Part shown: piece by piece, positions 1,741-55,247 of the stretch
Layout: every line of letters starts with the position of its first letter
How positions within the stretch are numbered: the first letter of the stretch is position 1
Assembly (NCBI GenBank): GCA_021737405.1
Contig: JAIPEG010000003.1
Location: 62,001 to 126,000 of the forward strand
DNA length: 64,000 nt
From: Bacteriovoracaceae bacterium
Lineage (GTDB): Bacteria; Bdellovibrionota; Bacteriovoracia; Bacteriovoracales; Bacteriovoracaceae
Direction: 5' to 3'
Made by a program: the position numbers and the translations under genes
Notes under the pieces: model-generated
Seen by the model: only the letters and a program-made list of their open reading frames with translations
The model's database searches: none
What the model was told of the DNA's origin: nothing

Positions 1741-2104
1741 AAAGTGAGCAAAACTCTTAATCGTCTTCTCTGGCCACTTTTGTGGGCAGATTTATAAGTC
1801 CTCTTAAATAAAAAATTTCTAAGAAAATTCACAAAAACTGAGGCATTAACTCCTTAAAATACTTTAGATTTTGTGGCCTACTCTTTATAAAATACTCTTT
1901 GCTACTTGAGAGTGTCCGCCAATTTGCTAGTGTTTAGGTACCCAAGAGACAGAATCATTGGTTTTTGTGTTGTACGTCAGTCAAAGTGGTATGTAAGCTG
2001 AGCCAAAAATCCAAAGAAAGTGACGCCATATTAGGGGATAAGTTAGGCCACATGGAGTGCGCCCCTTTTCCAAAAAGACCTAATTGGAGTTTTCTGGAGT
2101 TCTC
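1741..2104. other. intergenic region between recQ and the VWA lipoprotein gene
   Basis: This 364-bp gap has no convincing gene. There is a weak imperfect hairpin (GGCCAC-TTTT-GTGGGC, one mismatch) near 1771-1786 that might end recQ transcription, but no T-run follows. The promoter of the downstream motility block should lie here, yet I cannot name a clear -35/-10 pair. The only firm signal is the Shine-Dalgarno GGAG at 2096-2099 in front of the ATG at 2105. Confidence 0.4.
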
Positions 2105-17134: not shown

Positions 17135-20100
17135 ATGAAAAGTATTAATCTACTACTCCTATTCACGATTTTCTTTGCCACCAGTTGCGTGGTTGGGGAA
17201 GTTCAAGCGCCAAAAGACTCATCGGGTGCAGTTGTAGCTCCTTCCTTAAATTCTCTCTCTCCAAGTTTTGGCCCGCTAGCTGGTGGCACGACTGTTACTT
17301 TAAGCGGAAGCGCTTTTGCTACAGGTTTGAGTGTTGATATTGGTGGAGTAACCTGTGCTTCAGTAAGTGTTCTCTCAACAACCTCGGCCACTTGTATAAC
17401 AGCTTCAAATAGCGCTGGATCAAAGACCGTTAGCCTCACAAGAACTGATGGCCTCTCAACAAGTCTTTCCTCTGTTTTTACCTACATTGGAGCCCCAACG
17501 ATTACATCTATCTCGCCTACTGTTGGATATACTAATATCGGTACACCAGTCACGATCACTGGGACCAATTTTGTCTCAGGAGCAACTGTCACGATAGGCG
17601 GTATAACTTGTGGAAGTGCTTCCGTTCTTTCAAGCACAAGTATTAGCTGTACCGCAGGCCCACGTACCGCTGCCGCCGTAACGGCCACGGTAACAAATAC
17701 AGATAGTCAAAGTGGTACAGGAGGTTCTTTCTTCTATGTCGATCCTCCAAATCCTACGGGTCTAAGTACTGCTGCAATGGGAGCAGGTGCTCTTGCGGGT
17801 GGTACAGCTATCGTTATTACAGGGTCTAACTTTCTATCCCCTACTGTAAGTATTGGTCCCTATCCTTGTACCGTGGGAAGTTCCACTGCGACGACCATTA
17901 ACTGCACGACCACGGGAACTGCAGTTGCAGGAACTTATGATATCGTTGTCACTAATTCGAATAATCTTAGTGGCACTTTTTCAAATGGCTATAAATATCA
18001 GGCCGCTCCCACTGTTACATCTATTTCCCCAACTGGAGGAAGTAATTCAACAAGTACAACTGTAACAATTTCAGGAACAGGTTTTGATACTATAAGAGGG
18101 GTCTCTATTAATTTGACGGGCTGTGGAACAGTTATCCCGGCAAGCCAAACGAGTGCCACGTGTACCACAACTGGTGGTGCTTTAGGCGCTGCCAATGTTA
18201 TCGTTACAAACCTCGATGGTGATAACCAAGCGAATATAGCGCCCTTTACAACTTTTACCTATCGTGTCGCCCCAACTATCGGAAGTGTCGTCGCTGATAC
18301 TGGTACATCCCCTGCAGGAAGTATCAATGGTGGTACCCACCTAACAATAAACGGAACTGACTTTGTTAATCCTTCGGTAAGTATTGGAGGAAGCACATGT
18401 ACCGTAAACACTGGTCTTTCAAGCTCCACCGTCATTGACTGTACGACGACAGCGAGATCTGCAGGCACTGCCAATGTAGTGGTTACCAACGAAGATAATC
18501 AGACGGACACAGCAAGTAATGCCTTTACATATCAAGTGGCCCCAACGATTGACACCAATGGAGTGTCACCAAATGGTGGTAACCCATCAACAAACACAAT
18601 TGTGACGATTACGGGCCAAAACTTTGATACTGTAAACGGAGTTGTCGTTGAAATTGATGGTTTTGTTTGTGGCACTCAAGCAGGCCTTACAGCAACCAGT
18701 GTGACTTGTACGACAACTGGTGGTTCAGGCATTGTTAATGTTGAAGTTATTAATCAAGATGGTGATCTACAGACGGCCTTATTAACCAATGGTTTTACCT
18801 ATCAAGCAGCGCCAACCATTTCTTCTGTTTCTCCAAATGCTGGAGCACAGACCGGAACTCCCATTATTACTATCAATGGATCAAACTTCTTAGCAGGAGC
18901 AACTGTCACCGTTGGTGGAACGACTTGTGGGAATCCAAGTGTTGATACTATTAATGATATTATTACATGTGAGCGTCCTCCAAGAGCAGCAGGCCCTGCA
19001 GTTGATGTCGTCGTGACTAACCCCGATAATCAAACAGGAACGGCTTCTAGTGCCTACACTTATCAAGTTCCACCTGACCTAGTAAGTCTTTCCGTTTCTG
19101 CAGGCAGAACCATTGGTAACTTTAATACTACTTTAACAGGAACCGACTTTGTCGGAGCAGTCGTCACTATCAATGGAAGAACGTGTTTAGAAGTTTCTCA
19201 AAATGCAACAACCATTGTGTGCTCTATTCCTAGTAACCTAGGTGTTGCGGGAACATATGATGTGGTTGTCACAAATTCTGATGGACAAGTCGACACCCTC
19301 CCAAGTGGCTTTCGCTATATTGGCCCTCCAACAATTTCGTCAAGAAACCCGACTGGTGGAAATCCTATAGGAAATAGCACAACCCTCTTTATCAATGGTA
19401 GTTTTGATATGGGTGTTGGGGTTCAACAAGTTTATATTGGTCTCCTCCCCTGCGATAGTTTTTCTGCGACATCTACTATTATTCAATGTGACCCTCCTGA
19501 CCAGGGAGTGGGGGCTTATGCCATAAGAGTCGTTATGAATGACGGTGGAAATCAAGAGGTCACCGCAACAGATACCTACACCTATTCGCCGGCGCCTGTT
19601 GTCGGCTCAGTTAGTCCCATTGGCGGCAGCACACTTGGTAACACTCTTGTCACAATTACGGGCACTGGCTTTTTACCAAATGCCGACATATTGATAGGAC
19701 CAAGTGCTACTTGTAATTTAGTCTCAGTAAGTGGAGATGGCACTCAAATCACTTGTACAACCTCGGCCACCATAGCAAACACTTATGATGTAACCGTTAC
19801 TAATACAGATGATCAAACTGACACTCTTTCCGCTTCGTATACCTATGCCATTCCACCAACGGTATCAGATCTTTCAGGAAATCATGATAATGCCTCCGCT
19901 ACTGGTGGTTCTACTATCAGAATTGAAGGAACAAGTTTTGTTACTGGAGCAGTGGCCTATCTTGATGGCCAGGTCTGTACTTCTACAACCTTTGTATCTG
20001 CTGGTGCTGTTGATTGTGTTGTTCCAGCAAGACTAGGCACAGCGACAGCAGGAGCAAAGGATGTCAGAGTTGTAAACCCAGATGGTCAGGAAGCAACGGG

Positions 20101-22657
20101 AGTCGGCATTTTTACTTATACTGATCCACCTGTAATAACCAGCATCTCAAGAGGAATAGGCAGTACCCTTGGTAGTGAGACCATTACAATCAATGGAACA
20201 AACTTTGGCACAACCGGTGGGCTCTCTGATGTAAGCCTCGCGGGTGTAACATGTGGGACTTTTACTTTAGTAAGTTCCACTGAAATAACTTGTATTACTG
20301 CTCCGACAGGTTCTGCTGTCACAGGGGACGTTGTTGTCGTCAATGCAGACTCAGATTTATTATCAGACACAATTACCAATGGTTTTAGTTATATTGCTCC
20401 ACCAAATATCGTAAGCATAAACGTCGCGAATGGTCCTTCAAATGGAGGAACCACTTTAATCCTCACGGGATCTGGGTTTATCGTCGGAGGACCAACAACA
20501 GTGACTATTGCAGGGGCGACTTGTACTGGCCCCGTCGTTGGTGGAACGATTGTGAGCGGAGTTGGAGATCAACTTACTTGTACAACAGGCTTAGCAACAG
20601 CGGGGTTAAACTACCCTATTGTTATCACAAACTTTGATGGACAAACGGACCCTGATGGAACTCCGACTTTTACATATGATCCTCCCCCAAGATTCAATGC
20701 CACAACTCCTTTGACAATCACGACAGGAAGTACAGCAGGTGGTGGCAGCCTAACTGTAAATGGAGGAGATTTTGTAAGTCCACTCGACATTTCAATTGGA
20801 GGCAGCCCTTTTACAAGCTGCTCCTTTACCAACGCAACCAGTGCCACCTGTCCAATACCGGCTGGTACAATTGGGGCACAAGACGTCATTATTAGAAACC
20901 CTGATTTGCAAACGGCCACTCTGACGGGAGGCTATACTTATGTTTCGGCTCCCGCTGTAACAAGTGCATCGCCAAATATTGTAGATGCTGTTGCATCGAC
21001 TCTCATCAGAGTTTTAGGCTCTGGTTTTATCAATGGCACAGGCCTCGCTGTTAATATTGATCCTAGTGGGACTAATGATGTATGCACCAGTCCAACATGG
21101 GTTAATTCTGGAGAGATTACATGTACAGCTCCTCCTCATGCAAGTGGACTAGTCGATATTCAAGTCACAAATGGAGATGGCAGTAATCAACTCTCTACTG
21201 GTGGCACAAGCGTATTGAACTTTATCGCTGCCCCAACAATTACTCCAGCATCTATTTCACCAAGTAGTGGTGTTGAAACTGGTGGCACAACGATTACGAT
21301 CACCGGAACAAACTTCACAACGACTCCTGTCCCAGAAGTCTTTGTGAATGGTGTGGCCTGCCAAAGCTTAGCTAACATCACAACGACTTCTATTGATTGC
21401 GTGACACCAAATATTTTACCAACGACAGGTGCGGTTGACGTTATGGTAAGAATTTATGGAACTGTATCTGCTACCGAAGTTGGAGGATATACTTATAACC
21501 CCAAACCAAGAGTCGATGCAGTCTCACCGACAGAGGGCCCTAAAACGGGCGGAACCATCTTAACAATTGATGGCGCTAATTTTGTCAATAATGTGGCCAC
21601 GACCATTTCTGTGGGAGGCATTCCCTGTGATACCGCAGTATCAATTACAACTACCCAAATCACTTGTACCCTTTCAACTGTTTCAGGAAATGGACCAACC
21701 GGCTCTGCCCAGACAATTGTTGTCACTAATAATGATGGCCAAGTGGGAACAAGTACCGCCCTTTACACGTACTTAGAGGCACCTGTGATCACCAACATTT
21801 CTCCAAGTGCTGGAAAGGCCTCCGGAGAGATCATCACGATTACCGGAACAGACTTTAGAACGAGTGTCAGCGTTGATATCAATGGCTCAAGTTGTTCTAT
21901 TATTGGAACCCCAACAGCTACGAGTATTCAATGTACAACCCCTATATTGACAGGAACATCTTCTTATAATGTTGTGGTGACAAATACGGATGGCCAGGCC
22001 GACACCGAAGTTAATGGGTTTCAGGCCCAAGCAGAGCCAACAATTGCAGGAGCCCTCTCCCCTAATTCAGGAGACCTCTCTGGCGGAACATTAGTAACGA
22101 TTACAGGAACAAATTTTGAGGCCGGTGCCCTCGTTTCCTTTGGGGCCAGTAGTGGCATTACACCAGATAGCATTAGTGGCACAACCATTACCGTTAGATC
22201 CCCCTTATCTGTGTCAACAGGTCTTGTAAATGTCGTTGTTCAAAACCCTACGGGACAAAGTGTGACCTCCACAAATGCTTTTACCTATACACCTGCCGCT
22301 CCAGAGCTTGAGTTTCAAATAGGTACTCTAAGCCCCAATCCACCAAACCCTGCGGATTACGATGCTGCTCCAAACTCTTCATCGGCAGTAAATCGCTCAT
22401 TGACTTACACACTTAAGAATGTCGGCTCTGCCACGACGTCCACAATAACAATATCCCGATCAGGAGCTAATACAGCCGCCTATTTTATTAACTCCGACAC
22501 ATGTACTGGAACAACACTCGCCGCCAATGCTGAATGTACAGTGGACGTTATCTTCTTAGGCGCTATTATGGCCGCAAGTACCACTTATACGGCAACACTC
22601 AATGCCACAGATGGAACCACAACTTCAACAAATAATATGACCGGGTCTACGCCATGA
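17135..22657 (+). CDS. giant lipoprotein with about 19 IPT/TIG repeats
   Basis: 1840 residues; the lipoprotein signal ends FFATSC (Cys18). The rest is an array of about 19 immunoglobulin-like IPT/TIG domains of 85-95 residues, each opening with a pattern like APTITSISPTVG, continuing GTPVTITGTNFVSGATVTIG and containing a Cys pair of the form ITCGS...SISC that could form one disulfide per domain. The last 120 residues (ELEFQIGTLSPNPPNPADYD onward) differ and look like a choice-of-anchor/ASH-type beta domain. Such arrays form extended rods on cell surfaces and act as adhesins. No transport or enzymatic domain is present. It is preceded by a sigma-28-type promoter and coupled (ATGA) to the next gene. 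Confidence 0.92.
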   Translation: MKSINLLLLFTIFFATSCVVGEVQAPKDSSGAVVAPSLNSLSPSFGPLAGGTTVTLSGSAFATGLSVDIGGVTCASVSVLSTTSATCITASNSAGSKTVSLTRTDGLSTSLSSVFTYIGAPTITSISPTVGYTNIGTPVTITGTNFVSGATVTIGGITCGSASVLSSTSISCTAGPRTAAAVTATVTNTDSQSGTGGSFFYVDPPNPTGLSTAAMGAGALAGGTAIVITGSNFLSPTVSIGPYPCTVGSSTATTINCTTTGTAVAGTYDIVVTNSNNLSGTFSNGYKYQAAPTVTSISPTGGSNSTSTTVTISGTGFDTIRGVSINLTGCGTVIPASQTSATCTTTGGALGAANVIVTNLDGDNQANIAPFTTFTYRVAPTIGSVVADTGTSPAGSINGGTHLTINGTDFVNPSVSIGGSTCTVNTGLSSSTVIDCTTTARSAGTANVVVTNEDNQTDTASNAFTYQVAPTIDTNGVSPNGGNPSTNTIVTITGQNFDTVNGVVVEIDGFVCGTQAGLTATSVTCTTTGGSGIVNVEVINQDGDLQTALLTNGFTYQAAPTISSVSPNAGAQTGTPIITINGSNFLAGATVTVGGTTCGNPSVDTINDIITCERPPRAAGPAVDVVVTNPDNQTGTASSAYTYQVPPDLVSLSVSAGRTIGNFNTTLTGTDFVGAVVTINGRTCLEVSQNATTIVCSIPSNLGVAGTYDVVVTNSDGQVDTLPSGFRYIGPPTISSRNPTGGNPIGNSTTLFINGSFDMGVGVQQVYIGLLPCDSFSATSTIIQCDPPDQGVGAYAIRVVMNDGGNQEVTATDTYTYSPAPVVGSVSPIGGSTLGNTLVTITGTGFLPNADILIGPSATCNLVSVSGDGTQITCTTSATIANTYDVTVTNTDDQTDTLSASYTYAIPPTVSDLSGNHDNASATGGSTIRIEGTSFVTGAVAYLDGQVCTSTTFVSAGAVDCVVPARLGTATAGAKDVRVVNPDGQEATGVGIFTYTDPPVITSISRGIGSTLGSETITINGTNFGTTGGLSDVSLAGVTCGTFTLVSSTEITCITAPTGSAVTGDVVVVNADSDLLSDTITNGFSYIAPPNIVSINVANGPSNGGTTLILTGSGFIVGGPTTVTIAGATCTGPVVGGTIVSGVGDQLTCTTGLATAGLNYPIVITNFDGQTDPDGTPTFTYDPPPRFNATTPLTITTGSTAGGGSLTVNGGDFVSPLDISIGGSPFTSCSFTNATSATCPIPAGTIGAQDVIIRNPDLQTATLTGGYTYVSAPAVTSASPNIVDAVASTLIRVLGSGFINGTGLAVNIDPSGTNDVCTSPTWVNSGEITCTAPPHASGLVDIQVTNGDGSNQLSTGGTSVLNFIAAPTITPASISPSSGVETGGTTITITGTNFTTTPVPEVFVNGVACQSLANITTTSIDCVTPNILPTTGAVDVMVRIYGTVSATEVGGYTYNPKPRVDAVSPTEGPKTGGTILTIDGANFVNNVATTISVGGIPCDTAVSITTTQITCTLSTVSGNGPTGSAQTIVVTNNDGQVGTSTALYTYLEAPVITNISPSAGKASGEIITITGTDFRTSVSVDINGSSCSIIGTPTATSIQCTTPILTGTSSYNVVVTNTDGQADTEVNGFQAQAEPTIAGALSPNSGDLSGGTLVTITGTNFEAGALVSFGASSGITPDSISGTTITVRSPLSVSTGLVNVVVQNPTGQSVTSTNAFTYTPAAPELEFQIGTLSPNPPNPADYDAAPNSSSAVNRSLTYTLKNVGSATTSTITISRSGANTAAYFINSDTCTGTTLAANAECTVDVIFLGAIMAASTTYTATLNATDGTTTSTNNMTGSTP

Positions 22658-34324: not shown

Positions 34325-35365
34325 ATGATAAGAAAGATCCTTCTTTTGACATTTTTTCTCCAGGCTCAAGTTTTTGGTCAAAGCTGTAATCCTGAAAATG
34401 ACCGCGATCATCGACGTCCAACTTTTTATAATGAAGAAACTCAAACTCATATCATGCGAGATCAAGGAGATAGTGGCTGGTGCTACGCTTTTTCAACAGC
34501 TGACCTGGTCACAGATTACTTATATAAGAATAACCCTGAAATCTTAACTCAAACTCCTGAAAGAGAAGATCAACTAATCTCCCCCGTTAGTTTGCTGCCA
34601 GCAATTGCCTCCTTTAGTGAAGGCCAAAGTGATGGTCGATTCACCCAAATGACCGAAGGCGGCCAAGTGACTCAGATGATGATTGATATTGTTGCCTCTG
34701 TAGATCCCAGAAATCGCATTTGTCTTGAAAGTGAAGTGCGCTCTTCAAACTTTACTATTAATGGCGAGGAGATTGATGTTTTGGCCCTTCTTGACAACCT
34801 CGAGCTTCAGTATAACCCACAAACAAATGATCAGATTCTTTGCCAACAAGTAGGCCTACTCAATCGAACCATTCTCCCTAATCTTGAAGTCAGCGACGTC
34901 GTAAATATATTGAATCAAATTCAAAGCACAAATAAACCTATAACAAGCATTAACTATATTTCTCAGGTCATTAGTGAGAGTTGCAAAAATCCCCTGCCAA
35001 CCCTAAAACTTCCTGAAGTAAAAAGAGTCAGAAGAACGAATACCGACGGATCCGATAATCAAGAAGATTTTCTAGCGGCCATTGACCAGCAACTCTTGTC
35101 AGGATCAATTTTGGCCCTCGAGTATAATGGTTACTTGCTTGAATCCTCTGAAGGCCTTGATGCAAAGGGCTTTCCAATAGAAGCACCACATGTAAGCACG
35201 ATTGTCGGAAGAAGGTGTATCGATGGCGAAAGTCAGTATTTAATTCGAAACTCATATGGCCCAACTTGTGACTTTTACCTTGAAGAATTAGATTGTGACG
35301 AGGGTAATATCTGGGTACCAAAGGAGCTTCTTCTAAGAATGTCTCGAAGAGTAAACTACTTATGA
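34325..35365 (+). CDS. exported papain-like (C1 family) cysteine protease, cassette 1
   Basis: 346 residues; signal peptide ends near VFGQS. Papain-type catalytic elements occur in the right order: Gln47 and Cys53 in RDQGDSGWCYAFSTAD, His289 in EAPHVSTIVGRR, and Asn309 in LIRNSYG. The QGxxGxCYAF block is the usual C1A signature (oxyanion Gln and nucleophile Cys). There is no separate propeptide before the catalytic Cys; about 220 residues lie between Cys and His, more than in plant papain. It would cleave proteins outside the cytoplasm. Its stop overlaps the next ATG (ATGA). It is homologous to the gene at 44575. Confidence 0.88.
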   Translation: MIRKILLLTFFLQAQVFGQSCNPENDRDHRRPTFYNEETQTHIMRDQGDSGWCYAFSTADLVTDYLYKNNPEILTQTPEREDQLISPVSLLPAIASFSEGQSDGRFTQMTEGGQVTQMMIDIVASVDPRNRICLESEVRSSNFTINGEEIDVLALLDNLELQYNPQTNDQILCQQVGLLNRTILPNLEVSDVVNILNQIQSTNKPITSINYISQVISESCKNPLPTLKLPEVKRVRRTNTDGSDNQEDFLAAIDQQLLSGSILALEYNGYLLESSEGLDAKGFPIEAPHVSTIVGRRCIDGESQYLIRNSYGPTCDFYLEELDCDEGNIWVPKELLLRMSRRVNYL

Positions 35366-35772
35366 AAAAGACTCTTCTTTTCCTAGTCCTCTCGAATAGC
35401 ATTTTAGCCTCTCCATGCGGCCCTTTTGAATTTTCCTTTTTTGTTAAGGACAAAGTGCACACAAAAAACGTCCAGCTTTGTCCGATCAAACAAAAGGATT
35501 TTGTCTCACCTGCGTGCCTTAATGGATATTGCCCCCAACTAAAAACTTATCCTATAAAAATGAAATTAAAGAGAAATGGTCTTAAGACCCACCCAGGAGC
35601 AGAACTTTGCAAAAAACTTAAAGGTACCTATCTCACTGGTTCTCTCTTAGAAAAAGCGAAATCCTCACAAAATGCTCTTTGTTTTTTTAATGATGGCAAT
35701 ATCGTGTCTATTGGTTATTTATATTCCCAATGGAAAAAAGGTATCACAGTCACTACTTCTCAATCCCCTTAA
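35362..35772 (+). CDS. small exported Cys-rich partner protein, cassette 1
   Basis: 136 residues; signal peptide MKKTLLFLVLSNSILA. The mature protein has six cysteines. The spacing LCPIKQKDFVSPACLNGYC and the end AELCKKL...ALCFFNDGNIVSIGYL match the protein at 45995-46384 (YCFNLDKIPLLDMKCAETKKC and SKCFLLGG...SLCFFSDGSFISVFNR). The last block (C then CFFxDG) faintly recalls the DUF333 family. The coupled start (ATGA) with the protease suggests an inhibitor, chaperone or specificity partner; that is inference. Confidence 0.8.
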   Translation: MKKTLLFLVLSNSILASPCGPFEFSFFVKDKVHTKNVQLCPIKQKDFVSPACLNGYCPQLKTYPIKMKLKRNGLKTHPGAELCKKLKGTYLTGSLLEKAKSSQNALCFFNDGNIVSIGYLYSQWKKGITVTTSQSP

Positions 35773-41454: not shown

Positions 41455-42471
41455 ATGCTAAAGACTATGGCCCTCATTTTACTAGCGACGACTAGTGCTA
41501 GTGGAAACTCTGTCTTTGATCACATTTCTGCAAATAAACTTCAAATTTCCAGTTCCCGTTGCCAAAATACCTCCTATTTGGACAATAAAGACCATTTTGA
41601 GAGCGTTATAAACTCGGTAAAAGAAAGAGATCAATTGAAGACCGCTTCCATTGGAGGACTTCTCGTTGAAGAAGAGTCAGTCAAGTTAACGGCCGCCTAC
41701 CGCTATCTGACAAGTCACTTAGATTATAAGCTTAGACCCGCAAAAGATATCGACTACTGGCACCTCTTTAAGGATGGCCAGTGTAAAGACGTCGTCTGTG
41801 CGGCCAAAGAAGTTTTTGGACCCGAGACAGGTTCCTTTTATATGGGCCTTCTTCTTGAGACAGGCCTTAATCTGTCCGCTCTTGGCTACTCGTTATTAAA
41901 ACCGCCTATTTTTCAAGGAGAAACCGAAGCAAGCGCTAATACGATCGCTGATTTTAATGGCCTTTATAGAGTAAGGGCCTGGCAAGAAGAAGAATTACAG
42001 GGCTATCTAGAGGGTATTTATTCTCTTCCATCCTCACTTTATCCCCTTCCACCTACGAGGTTGGCCCAATCCACTCATGAACATAGAAGAGGCCCGCAGG
42101 TCCACTCTAACGCGACAATAATCATGTATCCAGCGATGCTAGAGCTTGAAAAGGAATATCAAAAATACACAATGGTTCATGAAATCGGCCACGTCATTGC
42201 TAGTCACTTTGGTCTAGACACTAACCCGTTATGGTTTGAGATTTCTTGGCAAATTGATAGAGAAAGAAACCAGGTTCTTAGAAAGAATGAAACAAGCTTT
42301 GTGAGTGCTTATGCCCGACAAGACATCTTTGAGGATTTCGCGGAGTCCTTTGCGGCCTTTCGCTTTAATCCCAAATCTTTACTGGCCCATTCTCCAGAAA
42401 AGTTTAATTTTATTAAAGAAAGAGTTTTCAAAGGTCAGGACTATCTTTCAGAAAGTGAATGCCCACAGTAA
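41455..42471 (+). CDS. exported zinc metalloprotease-like protein (HExxH)
   Basis: 338 residues with a signal peptide (MLKTMALILLATTSASG). The zincin motif HEIGH in YTMVHEIGHVIASHFG is followed about 50 residues later by EDFAESFAAF, which places a Glu as a likely third zinc ligand (gluzincin type, as in ATLF-like toxin domains). A Trp-rich strand (NPLWFEISWQI) lies between. It would act as a secreted protease. The first 220 residues match nothing I know. It opens a series of genes for exported hydrolases up to 49065. Confidence 0.82.
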   Translation: MLKTMALILLATTSASGNSVFDHISANKLQISSSRCQNTSYLDNKDHFESVINSVKERDQLKTASIGGLLVEEESVKLTAAYRYLTSHLDYKLRPAKDIDYWHLFKDGQCKDVVCAAKEVFGPETGSFYMGLLLETGLNLSALGYSLLKPPIFQGETEASANTIADFNGLYRVRAWQEEELQGYLEGIYSLPSSLYPLPPTRLAQSTHEHRRGPQVHSNATIIMYPAMLELEKEYQKYTMVHEIGHVIASHFGLDTNPLWFEISWQIDRERNQVLRKNETSFVSAYARQDIFEDFAESFAAFRFNPKSLLAHSPEKFNFIKERVFKGQDYLSESECPQ

Positions 42472-43469: not shown

Positions 43470-44426
43470 ATGTTGAAGTTACTGCTCCCCATTCTTGCTG
43501 CTTTGATTTTATGTTCATGTGAAAATAAAACAAACTGGTCCATGCCCTCCTTGCTCGGTGCAAATCTAAGCCCCGAGGAAAAGGCCCACCCCCAAATTGA
43601 TGGTGTTCTTAGAAATGCCCAAAGCTTCAATTTAACGGGTGTCTCAAGAGAGATCAACCTTCTCACCAATGGCCCTACTCAAGTAAATTGCAATCGAGGA
43701 GACCCACGTCCAGCCAATGACACCCACACAGTAGAGAATCTTGGCTCTCCCTTTGAAGCAATGACTTCAGAGAGTCAAGAGCGCTCACCTCTTCGTCTAT
43801 GGGCCACTCATTACTACACCCCTGTCTACAATACTGAGACAGGTGGCGTCCCCTTAAAGAGAAGAAATGAAAGGTCTATCCAATATGAAGGACAAACAGT
43901 CAGTCTGAGTCATCGGCGTTGGTGCATGGCCGCGATGGAAGGAAGTGTTTCTATCAGAATGGTAGATGGCGTGACCAAAACCTACAACTACTCGGGTGTT
44001 GGCAATATGCAGACAGATTGCACGTCGTATTTTCGTGGTCAGCACCGAGCGACCGGAAGAGTAAAGTTCTCTGAAGTGACAAGTGCCTGGGGGCTTGGGG
44101 TCAGAAATTATTCTCTTATTCCCTATCGAACCATAGCCGTTGACCCTAATGTGATTCCATACGGCAGTGTGGTTTTTATAGCCGATGCTGTTGGTAAAGA
44201 AGTCACACTCGCCGATGGCACAAGCTTTATTCATGATGGTTACTTTTTCGCCGGAGACACCGGTGGAGCCATTCGCAACAACCACATTGATGTCTTTACT
44301 GGTAACAATTCCCATAATGACCTCCCCTTTATTCGCTCCACTTCCTCGGCGGTCTTTAATGCTGAAATCGTAAACGATCCTGTTTTGAAAGAGCGTCTAG
44401 AAAGACTTCATCGCCATGAGTACTGA
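43470..44426 (+). CDS. lipoprotein with C-terminal 3D domain (lytic transglycosylase-like)
   Basis: 318 residues. The lipoprotein signal ends at ILCSC (Cys17). The C-terminal third has the 3D motif named after its three aspartates: FFAGDTGGAIRNNHIDVFTG, preceded by IPYGSVVFIA. The 3D domain is the catalytic part of MltA-type lytic transglycosylases and of resuscitation-type proteins, which cleave glycan strands. No MltA N-terminal domain is evident; residues 90-210 (THYYTPVYNTETGG, RRWCMAAMEGSVSIR) look like a shorter companion. Outer-membrane location is likely. Confidence 0.87.
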   Translation: MLKLLLPILAALILCSCENKTNWSMPSLLGANLSPEEKAHPQIDGVLRNAQSFNLTGVSREINLLTNGPTQVNCNRGDPRPANDTHTVENLGSPFEAMTSESQERSPLRLWATHYYTPVYNTETGGVPLKRRNERSIQYEGQTVSLSHRRWCMAAMEGSVSIRMVDGVTKTYNYSGVGNMQTDCTSYFRGQHRATGRVKFSEVTSAWGLGVRNYSLIPYRTIAVDPNVIPYGSVVFIADAVGKEVTLADGTSFIHDGYFFAGDTGGAIRNNHIDVFTGNNSHNDLPFIRSTSSAVFNAEIVNDPVLKERLERLHRHEY

Positions 44427-44574: not shown

Positions 44575-46017
44575 ATGTTGAATATGGAAAAATTAATCAT
44601 TGCTTGTTCTTTCCTTCTCATACAAAACCTTGGTTTTGCATGTGATCAAGCTCCTACGGATATTAATCGAAATGATCAAAACCTAGGTCCTAGTAGAGAT
44701 CAAGATTCGATTGGCTATTGTTATGCCTTTTCTGCCGCAGATCTTTACGAGCAGTGGTTAAAAAAAAATAATTATATACCTGCAGATCAACATATTTCAG
44801 GAGTTGCTTTAGGTCTAGCTGATCATGCACAAGCATGGGATGAGAGGACAAGACAATTTAATAATCTCGGTATTTTAAGAAATACAAATCTGAGAGAGTT
44901 AACCAATAATCGCGACCAAAGACAATTAGAACTCGATACCCTAAATGAACAATTTGTGAACCAGGTTCGCCAATCGATGAATAATCTTCCTGAATATCCT
45001 TTATTCACTGATAGACTTGCCTATTATAGGACTTTGCCCCAAGACCATCAAGAGAAAGCAAATTTAAGGACAGAGCTTGAAGCAACCCTTGCGTCGATGG
45101 AGCAATCAGTGCTTGAAAATAACCCTAATCTAGCTTTAGAACAACAAAGGCTTATACAATTGAGAGCGGATATTGAGCATCAATGGGGTATAATTACAGG
45201 TTTCGTGGATTTTACACATACGGATATATTGCAATCTGACACAGAGTTAAGAGTTCAAGGTGGAAAAAGTGAAGAACTCTTAGCTGAACATTGGAATTCA
45301 ATTTGCTACGAATCAGAAGTTAGTAGCTCAGACATTCATGTAAAAAATCTTTACGAAAATTATCGAGAACTATACTCCGGTAGTTCGGCCACTCCAGATG
45401 ATTTAAGTGGTGCAATTGGTTTCCTAAACAGCCTAAGTCATGAAGACAGAAATCAATGTGCCAATTTTATGATGGCAACGACCCTTTTTCCAGGACTTCC
45501 CTTTCAAGATTTAACAAGTTTTACAAATTGGGTCGGACAGGGAAACCTTCAAGGGTCCATGATTCAACAATTTCTCAATGAGTCCTGTACAAGAAAGTCA
45601 CCACCAGTACAACCTGAGATCAATATAACCAAAATAACAGGTAATATTACTTTCCCTATAAGAGACAATGAAAATGTTTTACAGGCGATCGATAATGCCA
45701 TTACATCTGGGAAAGTAGCATCTATAGGCTATAACTCGAGTATCCTCTTCGGAGATTTATCCCCCGAAACGTTTGGTCCCCATGAAAGTGTTATTGTAGG
45801 AAAAGCAAATCTTTGTGGCGAAGAGGCCTATATACTTCGTAATACTTATGGAGAAGAATTTTGTGATTATGCAAGAAGTGAATTTAATAGTAACGAGAGT
45901 AATCAATTTCAGGGTGCGCTCTCCCTAACTTACCAATGTGATGATCAAGGAAACTTTATCATCCCCAAAAATCTTTTAAAAGATGGACTCTACAGTGCGA
46001 CGACTATTTCTAATTAG
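44575..46017 (+). CDS. exported papain-like (C1 family) cysteine protease, cassette 2
   Basis: 480 residues with a signal peptide (MEKLIIACSFLLIQNLGFAC). Catalytic elements: Gln43 and Cys49 in RDQDSIGYCYAFSAAD, His403 in FGPHESVIVGKA, Asn423 in ILRNTYGEEFCDY. It is homologous to the cassette-1 protease at both ends (the ends of the papain fold) but carries about 130 more residues between, a Gln/Asn/Glu-rich helical insertion around residues 95-220. That may serve as an autoinhibitory or substrate-selecting region. The start is 44575, or 44584 if the first ATG is too close to the transcript end. The downstream partner gene overlaps by 23-35 bp. Confidence 0.87.
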   Translation: MLNMEKLIIACSFLLIQNLGFACDQAPTDINRNDQNLGPSRDQDSIGYCYAFSAADLYEQWLKKNNYIPADQHISGVALGLADHAQAWDERTRQFNNLGILRNTNLRELTNNRDQRQLELDTLNEQFVNQVRQSMNNLPEYPLFTDRLAYYRTLPQDHQEKANLRTELEATLASMEQSVLENNPNLALEQQRLIQLRADIEHQWGIITGFVDFTHTDILQSDTELRVQGGKSEELLAEHWNSICYESEVSSSDIHVKNLYENYRELYSGSSATPDDLSGAIGFLNSLSHEDRNQCANFMMATTLFPGLPFQDLTSFTNWVGQGNLQGSMIQQFLNESCTRKSPPVQPEINITKITGNITFPIRDNENVLQAIDNAITSGKVASIGYNSSILFGDLSPETFGPHESVIVGKANLCGEEAYILRNTYGEEFCDYARSEFNSNESNQFQGALSLTYQCDDQGNFIIPKNLLKDGLYSATTISN

Positions 46018-46384
46018 CCTAATATTCTCATTTAAGATCCAAGCAAACTGCATAAAGTCCGGTACCTTGAAATTTGTTAAAGAAAAATCAGAGATTTTAA
46101 AGAGTGCAGACTATTGTTTTAATCTCGATAAAATCCCGCTCCTTGACATGAAGTGCGCTGAGACAAAAAAGTGCCTAGCGATAGAGAAATACTCTACGAT
46201 GACAATCCCTCTGGTTCGCTCGGCGATGGGAAATCCTCTGCACAGTAAGTGCTTTCTCCTTGGTGGAGAGCCGCATATTGTTGAAGTCAAAAAACAAAAA
46301 GGCTGGAAAAGAACGAGTCTATGCTTTTTCTCTGATGGATCTTTTATCTCTGTATTTAATAGATTGAAATATAATCCTCAGTAG
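45995..46384 (+). CDS. small exported Cys-rich partner protein, cassette 2
   Basis: GTG 45995 opens MRRLFLISLIFSFKIQA, a neat signal peptide; the in-frame ATG at 45983 would add 4 residues. The mature part has six cysteines in the same order as the cassette-1 partner, and shares the C-terminal LCFFSDGSFIS block. It overlaps the protease gene, so the pair is translated together. No family fits convincingly; a faint similarity of the last block to DUF333 was noted. Confidence 0.78.
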   Translation: MRRLFLISLIFSFKIQANCIKSGTLKFVKEKSEILKSADYCFNLDKIPLLDMKCAETKKCLAIEKYSTMTIPLVRSAMGNPLHSKCFLLGGEPHIVEVKKQKGWKRTSLCFFSDGSFISVFNRLKYNPQ

Positions 46385-47628: not shown

Positions 47629-48453
47629 ATGAAAATATTAAACTTCCTCCTCCTGACACTCTTCCTAAATAATGGCCACGCTAACGTCTTTGATAGTGAT
47701 GATCGTCAAATTTTTATTCCTACTTCAAAACCATGGCTCGCCGTTGGTAAATTACAAATAAAAATGGGTCCTAATCAATTTGGAAGTTGTACGGGTACAT
47801 TAATTGGTAAAGACAAAGTCATAACGGCAGCACACTGTTTAATTAAAGACACTACGACAGGTGAAAAAATTAATCCTGAAGATGTTACTTTCCATGTTGG
47901 GTTTAATAGAAACGTCTCCCTCGCTTCTAGCCAGGGGGCGACCATTGAAGTTGGCAGCCAATTTCCGACAAGAGAATTTCATAAAGATTGGGCCATTATC
48001 ACCTTAAAGAATAGACTTGGTGATGAGTTTGGTTGGCTAGTACCAATGACCCTAAGCCCAAATCAGCTGCCTTTTCCAGTCAGTCATCTTGGATATTCTT
48101 ATGATTTTAATCAATCCCTAACAGGTCACTTTCAAAATCTTTGCTACATCCAAGATATTGTTGAAATTGGATATAGCGGAAACTACAAAAAGTTCTACCA
48201 TGACTGCGATATGCATGGTGGAGCAAGTGGAGGTCCCATCATCGGTTGGATAAATCAAACCCCATATATCATTGCCATCAATGTTGCCGAGAGTGTTGAC
48301 CCGAATACGCGAAGACCATATGTTGACGGTGTAAAGTACACTAAAGAAACCGCCAATATTGCAAGTGGAGTGTTTGCACCGATTAACGAAATATTTAAAA
48401 GAAGTATTTTAGAAACTAATTTTTCAAGAATCTCAGATTTATTAGAGCAATAA
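47629..48453 (+). CDS. exported trypsin-like serine protease (S1 family)
   Basis: 274 residues; signal peptide MKILNFLLLTLFLNNGHA. The catalytic triad is clear: His69 in VITAAHC, Asp120 in KDWAIITL and Ser200 in HGGASGGPIIG. The nucleophile motif has Ala for the usual Asp (GASGGP for GDSGGP). Cysteines at 54 and 70 flank the His as in trypsins. No separate propeptide or C-terminal sorting tail; it is predicted to act in the periplasm or outside. One of several exported hydrolases here. Confidence 0.93.
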   Translation: MKILNFLLLTLFLNNGHANVFDSDDRQIFIPTSKPWLAVGKLQIKMGPNQFGSCTGTLIGKDKVITAAHCLIKDTTTGEKINPEDVTFHVGFNRNVSLASSQGATIEVGSQFPTREFHKDWAIITLKNRLGDEFGWLVPMTLSPNQLPFPVSHLGYSYDFNQSLTGHFQNLCYIQDIVEIGYSGNYKKFYHDCDMHGGASGGPIIGWINQTPYIIAINVAESVDPNTRRPYVDGVKYTKETANIASGVFAPINEIFKRSILETNFSRISDLLEQ

Positions 48454-48489: not shown

Positions 48490-49065
48490 TTAGATGTCGT
48501 AAGACTCATTGTAGTAGCGGGCTTCATCATAATCATTTTCATCTTCATGGTCCGCGTGGTCTTCTTCTTCAAGGATAAGTTCCCCTAAGTAATTAGGATC
48601 AACATGTTCATTAGTAACCATTGAAGGATCATCAAAATTAATAAAAGAGGAAACACAACCACCCCAATGGCGACGAGTTCCAACATCAACGTGAAAGCGT
48701 CCACGACAATAAAAACCTGCTCCTCCACGCTCTTTCATTCGTGCTAGGTAGCGACCAACACTTTTTGTGGACACACCTGGCACACGAAAATCAGCGGCCT
48801 TACATTTAATATGCATCGAACTTTTTGCGCCTCCCCTTCTGGCATTATCTTCAGGTGAGCGGTATCCCGAAACAATATGGACGGGTTTTCCGAAATGGCG
48901 AGAGATTTTTAAGAGAATTTTATTAAGCTTGCCTGGAAAGCAACTAGTTTTGTCGCCAGTCTTGGTTTCAACAGTGGCCTTGCCACTTTTTAAGATGACT
49001 TTACTAAAGGCGGGCGTTTGGAAAAAGCATCCTAATAATAGGATGACAACTAATCGTTGGGTCAC
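48490..49065 (-). CDS. exported DUF882/M15-type (MepK/YcbK-like) peptidoglycan peptidase
   Basis: 191 residues with a signal peptide ending near PAFS. It carries SGYRSPEDNARRGGAKSSMH, then the zinc-binding KCKAADFRVPG and GFYCRGRFHVDVGTRR, with His and Asp ligands of the type found in DUF882/YcbK murein endopeptidases. These cut 3-3 or D-Ala-mDAP links. The C-terminal 30 residues are strongly acidic (EEEDHADHEDENDYDE), an odd tail that could bind calcium or keep the enzyme off the wall. A terminator follows. GAGG precedes the ATG. Confidence 0.88.
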   Translation of the reverse strand: MTQRLVVILLLGCFFQTPAFSKVILKSGKATVETKTGDKTSCFPGKLNKILLKISRHFGKPVHIVSGYRSPEDNARRGGAKSSMHIKCKAADFRVPGVSTKSVGRYLARMKERGGAGFYCRGRFHVDVGTRRHWGGCVSSFINFDDPSMVTNEHVDPNYLGELILEEEDHADHEDENDYDEARYYNESYDI

Positions 49066-50292: not shown

Positions 50293-51005
50293 TTTTGACT
50301 CTCTTTTCTTAATCGAAAGTAACCACCTGGAGTTTTTCGATAAAAATCAGTTCCACGTATCAATATACGAAAATCCATACTCACTCTTGTTAAATTAGTT
50401 TCATTCGCCACATTTCCATGAAGATGCTCTTGTGAAAAGATCACTGCTTCACCCATCGTTATATTGGCGGGCCGACAAATTGTAAGAGACAATTCTTGAA
50501 TTTCATTGTAGTTCAATTGCTCTTCTTTGATTTTCTTAATGACTTTTCTAGAGCTCTCTAAATCAGCAATATACATGCTAGAGCTATTCATAGCATCGTT
50601 AAAGGGAACCCACATGGTTCTCTCCCCTAGTCCGTGCCCTTGTAACTGGCCGGTGTGGAAGGGTAATTTCATCGTAGGATCATCAGGTCTAAATATGCGT
50701 ATATTTTGAAACTTTTGAATCGCAAATTCGTTGCCACCTAGCCTCGGTAAGAAAACCTCATCTAAAAGAGAGTTCATCATATTTTGAAAATCTTTATCCT
50801 GCGTTTTTTCAATTAAGAATTTGGTCAAATTTGAATTTTCACTCTTAGGAACATATTTATGGATATTTTTAAGATCATCAACTTCAGGAAATTTTTGTTT
50901 AATATATTTAAAAACCCATTTATCAAAGGCATATTCTTCACTATTATATTTAATTTTAACATTGTCGAATAAGTCGTAATTTAATTCGTTAAGATTACTT
51001 GTCAT
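50289..51005 (-). CDS. 2OG-Fe(II) oxygenase of the sporadic carbohydrate cluster
   Basis: Start at ATG 51005; an in-frame TTG at 51020 is possible. Iron-ligand pattern of phytanoyl-CoA-dioxygenase-like enzymes: LPFHTGQLQGHG (His), EHLHGNVANET (His) and a late Arg in RVSMDFRILIRG for 2-oxoglutarate. It probably hydroxylates or oxidises a sugar or carrier. It overlaps the stop of the GT39 gene upstream by 11 bp and the LIC12192-like gene downstream by 4 bp, so the three are coupled. Confidence 0.8.
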   Translation of the reverse strand: MTSNLNELNYDLFDNVKIKYNSEEYAFDKWVFKYIKQKFPEVDDLKNIHKYVPKSENSNLTKFLIEKTQDKDFQNMMNSLLDEVFLPRLGGNEFAIQKFQNIRIFRPDDPTMKLPFHTGQLQGHGLGERTMWVPFNDAMNSSSMYIADLESSRKVIKKIKEEQLNYNEIQELSLTICRPANITMGEAVIFSQEHLHGNVANETNLTRVSMDFRILIRGTDFYRKTPGGYFRLRKESQN

Positions 51006-52416
51006 TTGAAATTCCAACAACTTTATAAATTTTCAATTTACGCCAGCCTCTTACTAATGAAAATTGGTAGTTATCAATAAATTCACTTCTTAATTTTTCA
51101 ATTTTCTTTTTATCTTTGTCTACAACAACAAAAAGAAAATCATTCTTATTATTATTTTGAAGTTTTACCATTAATTCATCAAATATTATAACCTCTAAAT
51201 TATAATGGGCTTTAAGTTTTTTAGTATAAAAATCAAACATTTCAGGGTAAGGAGTAGGATACGGACTTAAATAGTAAATTTTTTCTTTGATATTTTCTCT
51301 TTCCTCATAGAGAAAACTTGTTGCTTCTCTCCACTCAGGCTTTTTGTAGGATTTAAAAAAGTTTCCTGACCAGTAATGATGAGAAAATGCTAATAAAGTA
51401 ACCATATAGCAAAATGCGATAACTTTCCTATGCTTTTCTTTTACAGAGGCCAATGCCAGCCCAATGGATAAAGAAACAAATGGAGTACTAAAATAGCCAA
51501 ACCTACCGTTAAATTGGTTTAGAGGCAAAATAAAATAAAGAAGAGCTGGGGTAATGGCCAGCAAAATGATTAGTAAAACGGTATGACCATAGAATTCCTG
51601 CCAGCAACGCAGGATATTAATAAAAAGAGAAAATATAAAAAACAAAGATAATATATGTATGAATATAGAATAGACGCTCTCACTTCCGAGCCAAAAGTTA
51701 AAGGTATTAAAAAAGAAATAACTTAGAGCTTCATAGTGATAACTCCAACTACCATAATCCCAGAATTGAGTCTTAGTTAATTGAGTATTAAAAACATAGG
51801 GTAAGAAGAAAGCACAAGCACTCAATAAAGCGAGAACATGATAAAGAGAAACTTTTCTTAATCTAAATATGTCAAAAGTAAAAAGGATCACGAAATACAA
51901 ATAAAGAAGGTAATGAGCTTGCAAGGCCAGCAAATATATCATGAAGGCAATCGTATTTTTTTTCTTAATAAAATGCCAATAAAAAAATTGAATAAGTAGA
52001 AAAGCACCAAAAGCATAAGGTCTAATTTCAGCACTGTAGCGAAAAACAGTTCCTAAACATAGAAAACTGACAGCACCTATGGCAGCATAAAGTGATGTAC
52101 TTTTGTTTCTCAAAATTAAAAAAATCGTAAATGCTGATAAATAATTAAAAAGAAAACTTATGACTCTAAGTTTAGCCTCCGTAACGTCTCCAATAATGAT
52201 CGTCCAAGATTTTAGTAGTAATGAAAACAACGGTGGGTGAAGATGATCAACTTTGTAGTTAAATATGCTAAGCCAATCTAAATTGGTGATAAAAAGACTA
52301 CCAAGCTCATCATACCAGAATGATTCAAAACCGAGATTAGTAAACCTTACAATAGTTACGCCGATCAAAATAAAGGCACAAAGAGCGAGTAGAGAGCGAT
52401 CAAATATTAATTTCAC
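50995..52416 (-). CDS. GT39-type membrane glycosyltransferase, copy A
   Basis: 473 residues with about 11 membrane helices. GTG start with GGAGG 6 bp upstream. The first loop has the acidic catalytic motif SFWYDELGSLF, followed by DHLHPPLFSLLLKSWT, as in PMT/ArnT-type (GT-C fold) transferases, which move sugars from lipid carriers to periplasmic targets. The soluble C-terminal part (KIEKLRSEFIDNYQFSLVRG) is small. It is closely related throughout to copy B. The start codon and Shine-Dalgarno lie within DNA homologous to the flavoprotein 3' end. Confidence 0.87.
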   Translation of the reverse strand: MKLIFDRSLLALCAFILIGVTIVRFTNLGFESFWYDELGSLFITNLDWLSIFNYKVDHLHPPLFSLLLKSWTIIIGDVTEAKLRVISFLFNYLSAFTIFLILRNKSTSLYAAIGAVSFLCLGTVFRYSAEIRPYAFGAFLLIQFFYWHFIKKKNTIAFMIYLLALQAHYLLYLYFVILFTFDIFRLRKVSLYHVLALLSACAFFLPYVFNTQLTKTQFWDYGSWSYHYEALSYFFFNTFNFWLGSESVYSIFIHILSLFFIFSLFINILRCWQEFYGHTVLLIILLAITPALLYFILPLNQFNGRFGYFSTPFVSLSIGLALASVKEKHRKVIAFCYMVTLLAFSHHYWSGNFFKSYKKPEWREATSFLYEERENIKEKIYYLSPYPTPYPEMFDFYTKKLKAHYNLEVIIFDELMVKLQNNNKNDFLFVVVDKDKKKIEKLRSEFIDNYQFSLVRGWRKLKIYKVVGISNDK

Positions 52417-52639: not shown

Positions 52640-54046
52640 TTAATTTGAATTTCTACTTGCACTATAGATTTTTAATCTGCGCCAACCTTGCACCAAATTG
52701 AATTCATATTGACTAAAGAACTTTTTCTTAAGTATTTCTATGCTTTCATTTTCCTTATCTACGATAACAAAAAGAAAATCCTTTTCTTTATTATCAAAAT
52801 TCTTCTCTAAATCTTCAAATAAAATGATTTCTAAGCTATAGTAATTCTTGATCTTGTCAATATAGTAATCAAAAGTTTCAGGTTCCATAATAGGGTAAGG
52901 ACTAATGTAATATAGTTTTCTTTTTAAAATATCCTTTTTTTCAAAGAGATAATTTGTCGACTCTCTCCATTCAGGTTTTTTTTTGTATTTAAAATAGTTT
53001 CCTGACCAGTAGTAATGAGAAAAGGCCAATAAAGTAAGCAAGTAACAAAAGGTAATTCCTTTTCTAAAGTCTTCTTTAGTTCTGCCAGCGGCAAGCCCAA
53101 TAGAGATAGCAATAAAAGGGTTACTAAAATAGTAAAATCTCTCTAAAACAAGATTAAGGGGCAATATGGCAAAAAGAAGAACAGGTGTTAGTGATAATAG
53201 CACCACAAGAATATCATCGCTTAACTTCTGACGCCAACTCATAGCATTTACAATAATTGAACCAATGAAAGCGAAGGATAACAAATAGATAAATATAGAA
53301 TAGACGTTTTCGTTTTCATGCCAAAAATTAAAAGTATTCAAAAAGAAATAAGAGATTGCACCAAAATGATAACTCCAATGACTATAGTCCCAATAAGGTC
53401 CCTGTCCTAATTCACTTCTGAGCACATAGAGCAAGAAAAATCCACAAGCACACAATAAAGAAGAAATATGAAAAAGAGATAGTTTTCTTAATCTAAAAAT
53501 ATCAAAAGTTAATATGATAAAAAAATACAAATAAAGCAGGTATTGGGTCTGTAAGGCCATTAAATAAAAAACAAAAGCCAGTAGCTTTTTATCTTTAATA
53601 AAATACCAATAAAAAAATTGAATGAGTAGAAAGGCACCAAGAGCGTATGGCCTAATTTCAGCACTGTAGCGAAAGACACTGCCTAAACACAGAAAACTAA
53701 CAGCACCTAAAGCAGCATAGAGCTTATTACATTTGTTTTTTAGGATTAAAAAAATTGTTAACGCTGACAAATTATTAAAAAGAAAGCTTAATGCCCTTAG
53801 CTTAGCCTCTGTTATCTCACCAATAATTATCGTCCAAGCTTTTAGTAGTAAAGAAAATAACTGTGGGTGAAAGAAATCATATTTGTTTTCAATGATACTT
53901 AGCCAATTAAGTTTAGATAGAAAAAGACTACCACGCTCATCATGCCACAACGATTCAAAACCGAGATTAATCCCCCTTGAAAATGTAACTAAAATGAAGA
54001 TACTAACGCAAAGAAAGAAAGAGGAGCGATTAAGAGTTAATCTCAT
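52640..54046 (-). CDS. GT39-type membrane glycosyltransferase, copy B
   Basis: Start at ATG 54046 with GGAGGA 5 bp upstream; an upstream extension to 54106 lies inside the flavoprotein gene. 468 residues, same plan as copy A: SLWHDERGSLF (an Arg where copy A has Leu), DFFHPQLFSLLLKAWT (one of the usual two prolines replaced by Gln), about 11 helices, and a short soluble end. It overlaps the flavoprotein stop by 17 bp, so the two are coupled. Since copy B keeps its flavoprotein partner, it is probably the original arrangement. Acceptor unknown. Confidence 0.86.
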   Translation of the reverse strand: MRLTLNRSSFFLCVSIFILVTFSRGINLGFESLWHDERGSLFLSKLNWLSIIENKYDFFHPQLFSLLLKAWTIIIGEITEAKLRALSFLFNNLSALTIFLILKNKCNKLYAALGAVSFLCLGSVFRYSAEIRPYALGAFLLIQFFYWYFIKDKKLLAFVFYLMALQTQYLLYLYFFIILTFDIFRLRKLSLFHISSLLCACGFFLLYVLRSELGQGPYWDYSHWSYHFGAISYFFLNTFNFWHENENVYSIFIYLLSFAFIGSIIVNAMSWRQKLSDDILVVLLSLTPVLLFAILPLNLVLERFYYFSNPFIAISIGLAAGRTKEDFRKGITFCYLLTLLAFSHYYWSGNYFKYKKKPEWRESTNYLFEKKDILKRKLYYISPYPIMEPETFDYYIDKIKNYYSLEIILFEDLEKNFDNKEKDFLFVIVDKENESIEILKKKFFSQYEFNLVQGWRRLKIYSASRNSN

Positions 54047-55247
54047 CGGCTTCCTCCATGGCCCTTTGTATACATATATCCATGTTGTAGTATTCCCACT
54101 CTGCAAAGCGCCCTAGGAGCCTAATGTTCTTACTCTTTACAAATTTCTTTATTTTTTCAACAGAACCCCTGGTGTTCTCATCATAGACGACATAGGCGTA
54201 ATCAGAGTAATGTAAATCGATTAGTTCATAAAGATCATCATCTTTTTGCTTTAAAAGGTCTTCTTTAGAAATAGAACCAAGGCACTCTGTGATTCTATAA
54301 TTAGACTTTTTTTCTCTCAAAAAGTTTCCAATATAAGCATGCCGATGAAAAAAATGGTCACTTTCAGGATGGTAACTCCAGGTAATATCATTAGACTTGG
54401 CCTTCCAAAAACATGTCGTAATTTTATTATATTTAAGCTTTTTTATTTCTTCACAGATACTCGCGTCGCAATCAATTAATTGATTAATGAGGTTAAGTGG
54501 TCCGGTGTAAATGACCTCATCGAAGTATTCATCGTTCAAGTAGTGCTTTCCATCAATATTTTCGATTTTTTTAATTTTCGTGTTTAACTCAATATTTAGA
54601 CTATTAGATAAAGCTTTAATTAAAGCGCCCTCTCCCTTATTGGGATAATAGAAAGTCGAATGGACCATATCCTTTTCCTTAAAGCCTAAGAAGGATTTTA
54701 GGAAATTTTTGAGATTTCTTTCAGGTAATTTACCCGGCAACCAATCGGTGCTCATCTCTTTTGGTTCTAACCCCCATATCTTCTTGTTATAAGGTAAGAA
54801 GTACGTTTCTGTTAAAATATTTCCAAAGGAAGATCGAAGCCAAGAATCAAAGTTTTGGTGATTTTTTTTGCCTTTTGCAAATAAGTAACTAAAAAGAGCA
54901 CTTATTCCAAAAAGAGGCCAATGGAATATCATTTCACGAAAGGCGTTTTCGATGGGGTACGAAATCAACTTGCCCTTTAAGTGAATTTTAGCATCACGAG
55001 TTACTTCATTCCATTCACTTTTAGGTAAGATTTCCTTAAAGACAAAATCGAGAACATCCTTATTCTTACTATTAAAACAATGTCCACCAGTGAGATGAAA
55101 GGGAACACCATCAATTGTCTTAACCTTTGAAATGCCACCAATCTCACTCTGAGATTCGAAAATTTTGACATCGTGATCTTTGGTTAATCGACCTAGTGCC
55201 AAACCAGATATGCCAGCACCAATAATTGCAATCTTCTTTTTCTTCAT
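54030..55247 (-). CDS. FAD-dependent oxidoreductase, UDP-galactopyranose-mutase-like
   Basis: Start at ATG 55247 (or 55253), right before the FAD-binding GAGISGLALGRL; the open frame upstream is not needed. About 405 residues: KIFESQSEIGGISKVKTIDG, HLTGGHCFN, YNKKIWGLEPKEMSTDWLPG and YYPNKGEGALIKALS. The PYNKKIWG and YYPNKGEGxL blocks fit the UDP-galactopyranose-mutase/protoporphyrinogen-oxidase-like group. In a glycan cluster a mutase that makes furanose sugars is the most natural reading, but an amine-oxidase type is not excluded. Coupled to GT39 copy B. The ribosome site is weak. Confidence 0.82.
   Translation of the reverse strand: MKKKKIAIIGAGISGLALGRLTKDHDVKIFESQSEIGGISKVKTIDGVPFHLTGGHCFNSKNKDVLDFVFKEILPKSEWNEVTRDAKIHLKGKLISYPIENAFREMIFHWPLFGISALFSYLFAKGKKNHQNFDSWLRSSFGNILTETYFLPYNKKIWGLEPKEMSTDWLPGKLPERNLKNFLKSFLGFKEKDMVHSTFYYPNKGEGALIKALSNSLNIELNTKIKKIENIDGKHYLNDEYFDEVIYTGPLNLINQLIDCDASICEEIKKLKYNKITTCFWKAKSNDITWSYHPESDHFFHRHAYIGNFLREKKSNYRITECLGSISKEDLLKQKDDDLYELIDLHYSDYAYVVYDENTRGSVEKIKKFVKSKNIRLLGRFAEWEYYNMDICIQRAMEEADEINS

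Follow-up and report, generated by a model that had tools for sequence, protein, structure and literature searches.

What is the role of a small exported cysteine-rich protein whose gene overlaps that of an exported papain-like protease? This question was raised by two genes in a 64,000-nucleotide stretch of DNA (the window) from a Bacteriovoracaceae bacterium, corresponding to C26:62001-126000 of a 3.36 Mb genome that is 84% complete. The original prediction regarded the two genes as a possible undescribed secreted system in which the small protein, here called the partner, works with the protease. The following features of the window and its genome were considered in the analysis.

34325-35365, plus strand: protease of pair 1, 346 aa, with a sequence-predicted signal peptide, Q47, C53, H289 and N309, and without a propeptide
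35362-35772, plus strand: partner of pair 1, 136 aa, with a sequence-predicted signal peptide and six Cys; its C-terminal half most likely represents a distant DUF333 domain
35362-35365, plus strand: ATGA start/stop codon overlap of pair 1, with probable translational coupling
35578-35727, plus strand: DUF333-like core of partner 1 (residues 73-122), placed by profile-profile alignment
44575-46017, plus strand: protease of pair 2, 480 aa, with a sequence-predicted signal peptide; the stretch after the catalytic Cys is longer than in protease 1
45983-46384, plus strand: partner of pair 2, 133 aa, with six Cys; taking the first ATG as the partner start gives a 35-nt overlap with protease 2
Contig C42 of the same genome (locus L037), minus strand: third pair, protease 9273-7930 and partner 7937-7542

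Protease-partner pairs in the window and its genome

The coordinates, reading frames and ATGA overlap of the first pair were confirmed, as was the presence of a second, diverged pair at 44575-46384 in the same gene order and also overlapping. Export of the window proteins was predicted from leader sequences recognized by eye and by a simple hydrophobicity score. A long insert (44780-45260) that follows the catalytic Cys region of protease 2 and is absent from protease 1 was noted by eye.

Searches of the window's own genome identified three partner genes, all of which adjoin a protease, and one more protease of this family, the fourth in the genome, in a 309-aa open frame at G000:C30:30803-31540 (L273, L274), on a contig for which the same searches gave no partner match. 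An additional weak match on contig C29 (E 0.75) was rejected, as it lies in a long frame from which the papain motif is absent by eye.

The proteases of the two window pairs are 27% identical over 263 aligned columns, and the partners are 20% identical in the multiple alignment. No well supported set uniting both window proteases was found in a tree of 82 rows, and by plain identity (30%, 275 columns) the row nearest to copy 2 among the 82 was copy 1. Judging from these sequences, the two copies are old. Retention of the pair through duplication had been offered as the reason to assume that the two proteins work together; this argument is weak because the copies are very diverged and have no supported sister relation, and the adjacency of the two genes across the phylum, described below, is the better argument.

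Family and catalytic residues of the protease

By sequence, the window protease belongs to the papain type (C1), from which it has diverged, and it retains the catalytic Gln, Cys, His and Asn. The two window proteases scored 14.1 and 16.9 against PF00112 (Peptidase_C1), for which the cut-off is 20.7; one relative (L061) exceeded the cut-off with a score of 28.9, and 11 of 30 aligned relatives matched PF00112 at E 0.001 or better. A papain fold was found in the model of a relative (L194) within a joined chain, and the match therefore rests on that model rather than on one of the window protease itself: a search of the PDB gave 35 matches with an E-value of 0.001 or lower, including cathepsin S (E 5.6e-5, TM on target 0.58) and, with the best E-value, a Parabacteroides cysteine peptidase (E 2.1e-5, TM 0.47).

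The catalytic residues were conserved in nearly all of the 86 paired proteases (Gln in 85, Cys in 84 with two gaps, His in 86, Asn in 85). Cys, His and Asn were all present in 83 of these, the exceptions being the two alignment gaps at Cys and one G in place of N. Among 40 proteases without a partner, Cys was kept in 39, His in 39, and Asn in 35, with D in its place in four.

The partner and its relationship to DUF333

Neither window partner matched any Pfam or NCBIfam model above its cut-off. The Pfam DUF333 model (PF03891) detected neither of them and nothing else in their own genome, and no ankyrin repeat was found in them by Pfam at E 10 or better. Six of ten scanned relatives passed the DUF333 cut-off, eight of the ten having been chosen for their DUF333-like look, and two of the 41 sequences in the A3 partner alignment matched DUF333 at E 1 or better, the best at 0.00032. 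Profile comparison gave E 8.5e-5 with a probability of 60, weak by itself, when the profile of the 41 partners was set against three DUF333 proteins of other phyla in a single comparison, and E 2.3e-13 with a probability of 98 over 83 columns when six bridging partners were added to the same profile. On the basis of these profile comparisons, with and without the bridging partners, the domain in the C-terminal half of the partner most likely belongs, as a remote member, to DUF333. The core shared with DUF333 contains two conserved Cys together with N/S-P and G/GG motifs, whereas the window partners additionally carry two further Cys pairs in an N-terminal extension and are encoded next to a protease.

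The six cysteines of partner 1 are located at residues 19, 40, 52, 57, 83 and 107 of 136. In an alignment of 113 partners, with two columns of slack allowed, residues 19 and 40 were both Cys in 94 sequences, neither in 17 and only one in 2; residues 52 and 57 were both Cys in 112, neither in 1 and only one in none; and residues 83 and 107 were both Cys in all 113, with no sequence lacking either or both. Since Cys pairs are gained and lost jointly, three disulfides are predicted for the partner.

For the mature window partner, an AlphaFold model calculated from 41 rows had a pLDDT of 90.3 and a pTM of 0.81 and predicted a mixed strand/helix fold. A PDB search with this model gave nothing at E 0.001 or better, inhibitors included, and staphostatin was absent from the 50 listed of its 292 structure matches.

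No function for DUF333 was given in the titles and abstracts of the literature found to name it. The literature joining "DUF333 domain" with "inhibitor" was, by title and abstract, a secretome catalogue, and an apparent mention of DUF333 in PMC10318531 referred to DUF3335.

Adjacency of partner and protease genes in the Bdellovibrionota

The partner model matched 119 of 368 Bdellovibrionota genomes. From the top 116 matches listed, two contig-end fragments were excluded, and the remaining 114 loci were examined, weaker matches lying outside the count. A protease adjoined the partner at 110 of these 114 loci, so that a partner found mainly without a protease, which the original prediction had named as the observation that would speak against it, is not what occurs at these loci. 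At 92 of them, a script placed a same-strand protease upstream of the partner, no more than 244 nt away; the other 22 were read by hand. In this group the protease was directly downstream on the same strand at 16 loci, upstream at L099, where the script had missed it owing to the chosen start codon, and on the opposite strand in divergent orientation at L145; the last four (L093, at a contig end, L129, L131 and L138) had no protease in reach, or just a short fragment or a distant match. The genes overlapped in 79 of the 92 pairs with an upstream protease, in the +1 frame in 67 of the 79, and the commonest overlaps were of 11 nt (24 pairs) and 4 nt (10 pairs).

Because the partner model had been built from pairs, a search with the Pfam DUF333 model was also made. 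Its matches numbered 57, spread over 39 of 191 genomes, and a papain-like protease adjoined the DUF333 gene, within 1500 bases on either side, at 22 of 30 such loci; at L261 the protease is on the other strand. Three of the 30 loci (L237, L242 and L257) are also among the 114. The eight loci without a protease included three genes that appeared by eye to be double-domain (L232, L249 and L250), two long ones (L253 and L260), one of 177 aa (L259) and two of ordinary size (L233 and L240).

The order of the two genes was flipped, with adjacency kept, both for six-Cys partners (for example, L059 and L084) and for DUF333-scoring partners (for example, L134 and L235). Adjacency that persists in both gene orders is not explained by the inertia of a single ancestral operon and argues for a joint function, and a functional link between protease and partner is therefore strongly supported. 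The protease/DUF333 pair is a real cassette that is widespread in the Bdellovibrionota, with up to three pairs per genome in the examined sets.

Several DUF333/protease pairs in both gene orders were seen in genus g71 of family f6 (for example, L234-L239, L241-L243 and L245-L247), which includes several single-contig genomes; a cultured relative from this genus would serve as a ready test system. At L242/L144 (G173:C1, around position 1738500), a DUF333 gene is flanked on both sides by a papain-like protease.

Tests for coevolution of the two proteins and a joined-chain model

Evolutionary distances of proteases and partners were correlated, with a rho of 0.56 overall and of 0.35 for distant pairs (0 of 500 permutations in each case), although common descent contributes to this. 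The nearest relative in another genome was from the same locus for both proteins in 48 of 86 cases. Co-variation between the two proteins, which had been proposed as a check, showed no clear excess: by mutual information over 90 pairs (Neff 76), the maximal z was 6.70, compared with 5.14-6.64 in six shuffles. An AlphaFold model of the joined chain (pLDDT 81.3, pTM 0.70) was without a readable interface.

It is conceivable that the two are historical neighbours, that is, two exported proteins of one operon that make no contact, and the co-variation result and the joined-chain model would agree with this. However, adjacency persists while gene order flips, in six-Cys as well as DUF333-scoring partners, and this explanation is considered quite improbable.

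Proteases without a partner and DUF333 genes outside the phylum

The protease model matched 202 of the 368 Bdellovibrionota genomes. A census was made of the best 80 of 146 loci encoding relatives, together with the window and L037, with proteases of at least 250 aa. A partner was present for 38 of the 82 proteases (35 downstream, three upstream) and absent for 44, a few of which were cut by contig ends or frameshifts (for example, L159, L170 and L226). Another adjacent leader-bearing open reading frame with at least four Cys was found for two (L212 and L183) of 42 partner-less proteases scanned. The paired state required 20 changes on the tree, compared with a mean of 27.4 in shuffles, only 2 of 500 of which were as low, indicating that it is clustered yet often changes. 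The distribution is patchy even near the window organism, as the partner-model search gave no match in the six other genomes of its genus.

The near-constant adjacency and the gene overlaps would fit a 1:1 complex in which the partner is an obligate subunit, an activator, or an adaptor to a substrate or surface. Against this are the 44 of 82 protease relatives that have no partner, some of them within otherwise paired groups of the tree, and such a role is judged to be rather unlikely. The enzyme class does not appear to need a partner as such, because these partner-less proteases also mostly lack a propeptide, with a median of 52 residues ahead of the catalytic Cys.

The original prediction that the protease has no propeptide held for both window proteases, the catalytic Cys being residue 53 in protease 1 and residue 49 in protease 2, but not for all relatives. 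In five relatives (L010, L021, L029, L030 and L033), the catalytic motif begins at about residue 156-185 of the predicted protein; two of these (L021 and L030) have no partner, and the other three are paired. The combination of a propeptide-less enzyme and a co-produced partner in both window pairs could suggest a helper in folding or secretion, an escort or foldase that acts in trans and takes over from an intramolecular prodomain, with the mature enzyme left unregulated. However, the region ahead of the Cys is long in some partner-bearing proteases and short in most partner-less ones, opposite to what a prodomain in trans would predict, although the two groups were measured from different starts (pairs from the open-frame start, proteases without a partner from the chosen start codon) and are not compared like for like. 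Replacement of the propeptide by the partner was rejected as a general rule on these lengths, counted as they are from different starts, and a helper role is regarded as unlikely, if slightly less so than that of an obligate subunit.

Outside the phylum, the sample comprised 10 of the 38 plasmid records in which a DUF333-like match was found. Eight annotated DUF333 genes, from Ruegeria, Comamonas, Pantoea stewartii, P. ananatis, Ewingella, Acinetobacter, Klebsiella and Pseudomonas, had no protease neighbour. The other two records were an unannotated one from Vibrio and one from Haladaptatus in which the match lies inside a long hypothetical protein. The protease profiles gave zero matches in these ten stretches, and on this small sample of ten plasmid records the link to a protease is a feature of the Bdellovibrionota. 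A YoaF lipoprotein annotation was carried by one DUF333 gene from outside the phylum, and E. coli DUF333 served as a search control.

Comparison with known protease-partner systems

Staphostatin acts intracellularly, and inhibitors of its type are classified as I57/I58. The cassette has in common with the staphopain-staphostatin system (C47) a gene for a small protein directly beside a cysteine protease gene, as at 110 of the 114 loci here. It differs in that the partner has a leader, many Cys, kinship with DUF333 and a predicted fold that matches no PDB entry at E 0.001 or better, whereas staphostatin is lipocalin-like and its gene adjoins, and is co-transcribed with, that of the protease that it specifically inhibits (PMC2873492). 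Contiguous genes for a protease and a small partner were also described for SpeB-Spi and for Bfp-Bfi of Bacteroides (C10), in which Spi is a propeptide analogue, the Bfi proteins are staphostatin-like and Bfi1A has a typical export leader (PMC2873492). The window partner was set apart from Spi and Bfi by its placement with DUF333, and not by a direct sequence comparison.

Bdellovibrio, which we take to belong to the same phylum as the window organism, has a similar layout in Bd3459/Bd3460. There, an exported hydrolase is followed by a downstream gene for an exported periplasmic protector, Bd3460, an ankyrin-repeat protein whose targets are peptidoglycan endopeptidases (PMC4686830). In contrast, the partner described here is a non-ankyrin protein, and the enzyme beside it is a papain-like protease rather than a peptidoglycan endopeptidase.

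The protease/DUF333 cassette is therefore a known kind of arrangement, a protease with a small dedicated partner, that employs another partner family, one without an assigned function. The view that no system of this form had been described has to be narrowed accordingly, given these precedents and the fact that DUF333 is a known family; it holds for this particular cassette, of which no description was found in titles and abstract openings on cysteine proteases of Bdellovibrio or the Bdellovibrionota or on yoaF, among the matches listed.

A candidate inhibitor or guard

A small exported protein with predicted disulfides, whose gene overlaps that of an exported and catalytically intact protease, fits best with an inhibitor or guard. 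We favor, with about even confidence, the interpretation that the partner is a co-exported cognate protein that binds the peptidase, most likely as its inhibitor or as a guard for self-protection. The two genes would form a unit whose translation is probably coupled. The first would provide an exported papain-fold cysteine peptidase, the short versions of which have no propeptide, and the second an exported, disulfide-rich DUF333-type protein that may bind this peptidase. The partner would most likely occupy the peptidase outside the cytoplasm, and the cell's own envelope might thereby be spared until the enzyme arrives at its target. Counting against this reading are the 44 of 82 proteases that have no partner, the co-variation result, the partner model's lack of resemblance to solved inhibitor structures, the eight DUF333 genes of other phyla that have no such protease as a neighbour, and the lack of partner matches in the six other genomes of the window's genus.

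The wider proposal is held somewhat more tentatively: DUF333 proteins of the Bdellovibrionota may constitute a new class of exported cysteine-peptidase inhibitors with an unsolved fold, and the cassettes may be enzyme-plus-guard units by which predatory-type bacteria are shielded from the proteases that they themselves secrete. DUF333 would thereby gain a testable function, with a handle on how the Bdellovibrionota may restrain secreted proteases, and should the partner prove to inhibit, one of the most thoroughly studied protease families would acquire a new inhibitor fold.

Other genes in the window

Pair 2 is located among leader-bearing hydrolase-like genes (41455-42471, 43470-44426, 47629-48453 and 48490-49065), the types found there being a HEIGH putative metallopeptidase (PF15890, below the cut-off), a 3D-domain protein, a trypsin-like protease and an M15-type peptidase. 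Elsewhere in the window, 2084-3586 encodes a protein that looks exported and contains a long tandem repeat rich in Gly, Ser and Thr, across which other frames are also open, and 17135-22657 encodes a repeat protein of 1840 aa that is IPT/TIG-like by eye. Two adjacent and clearly similar membrane proteins, encoded at 50995-52416 and 52640-54106, appeared by eye to be glycosyltransferase-like.
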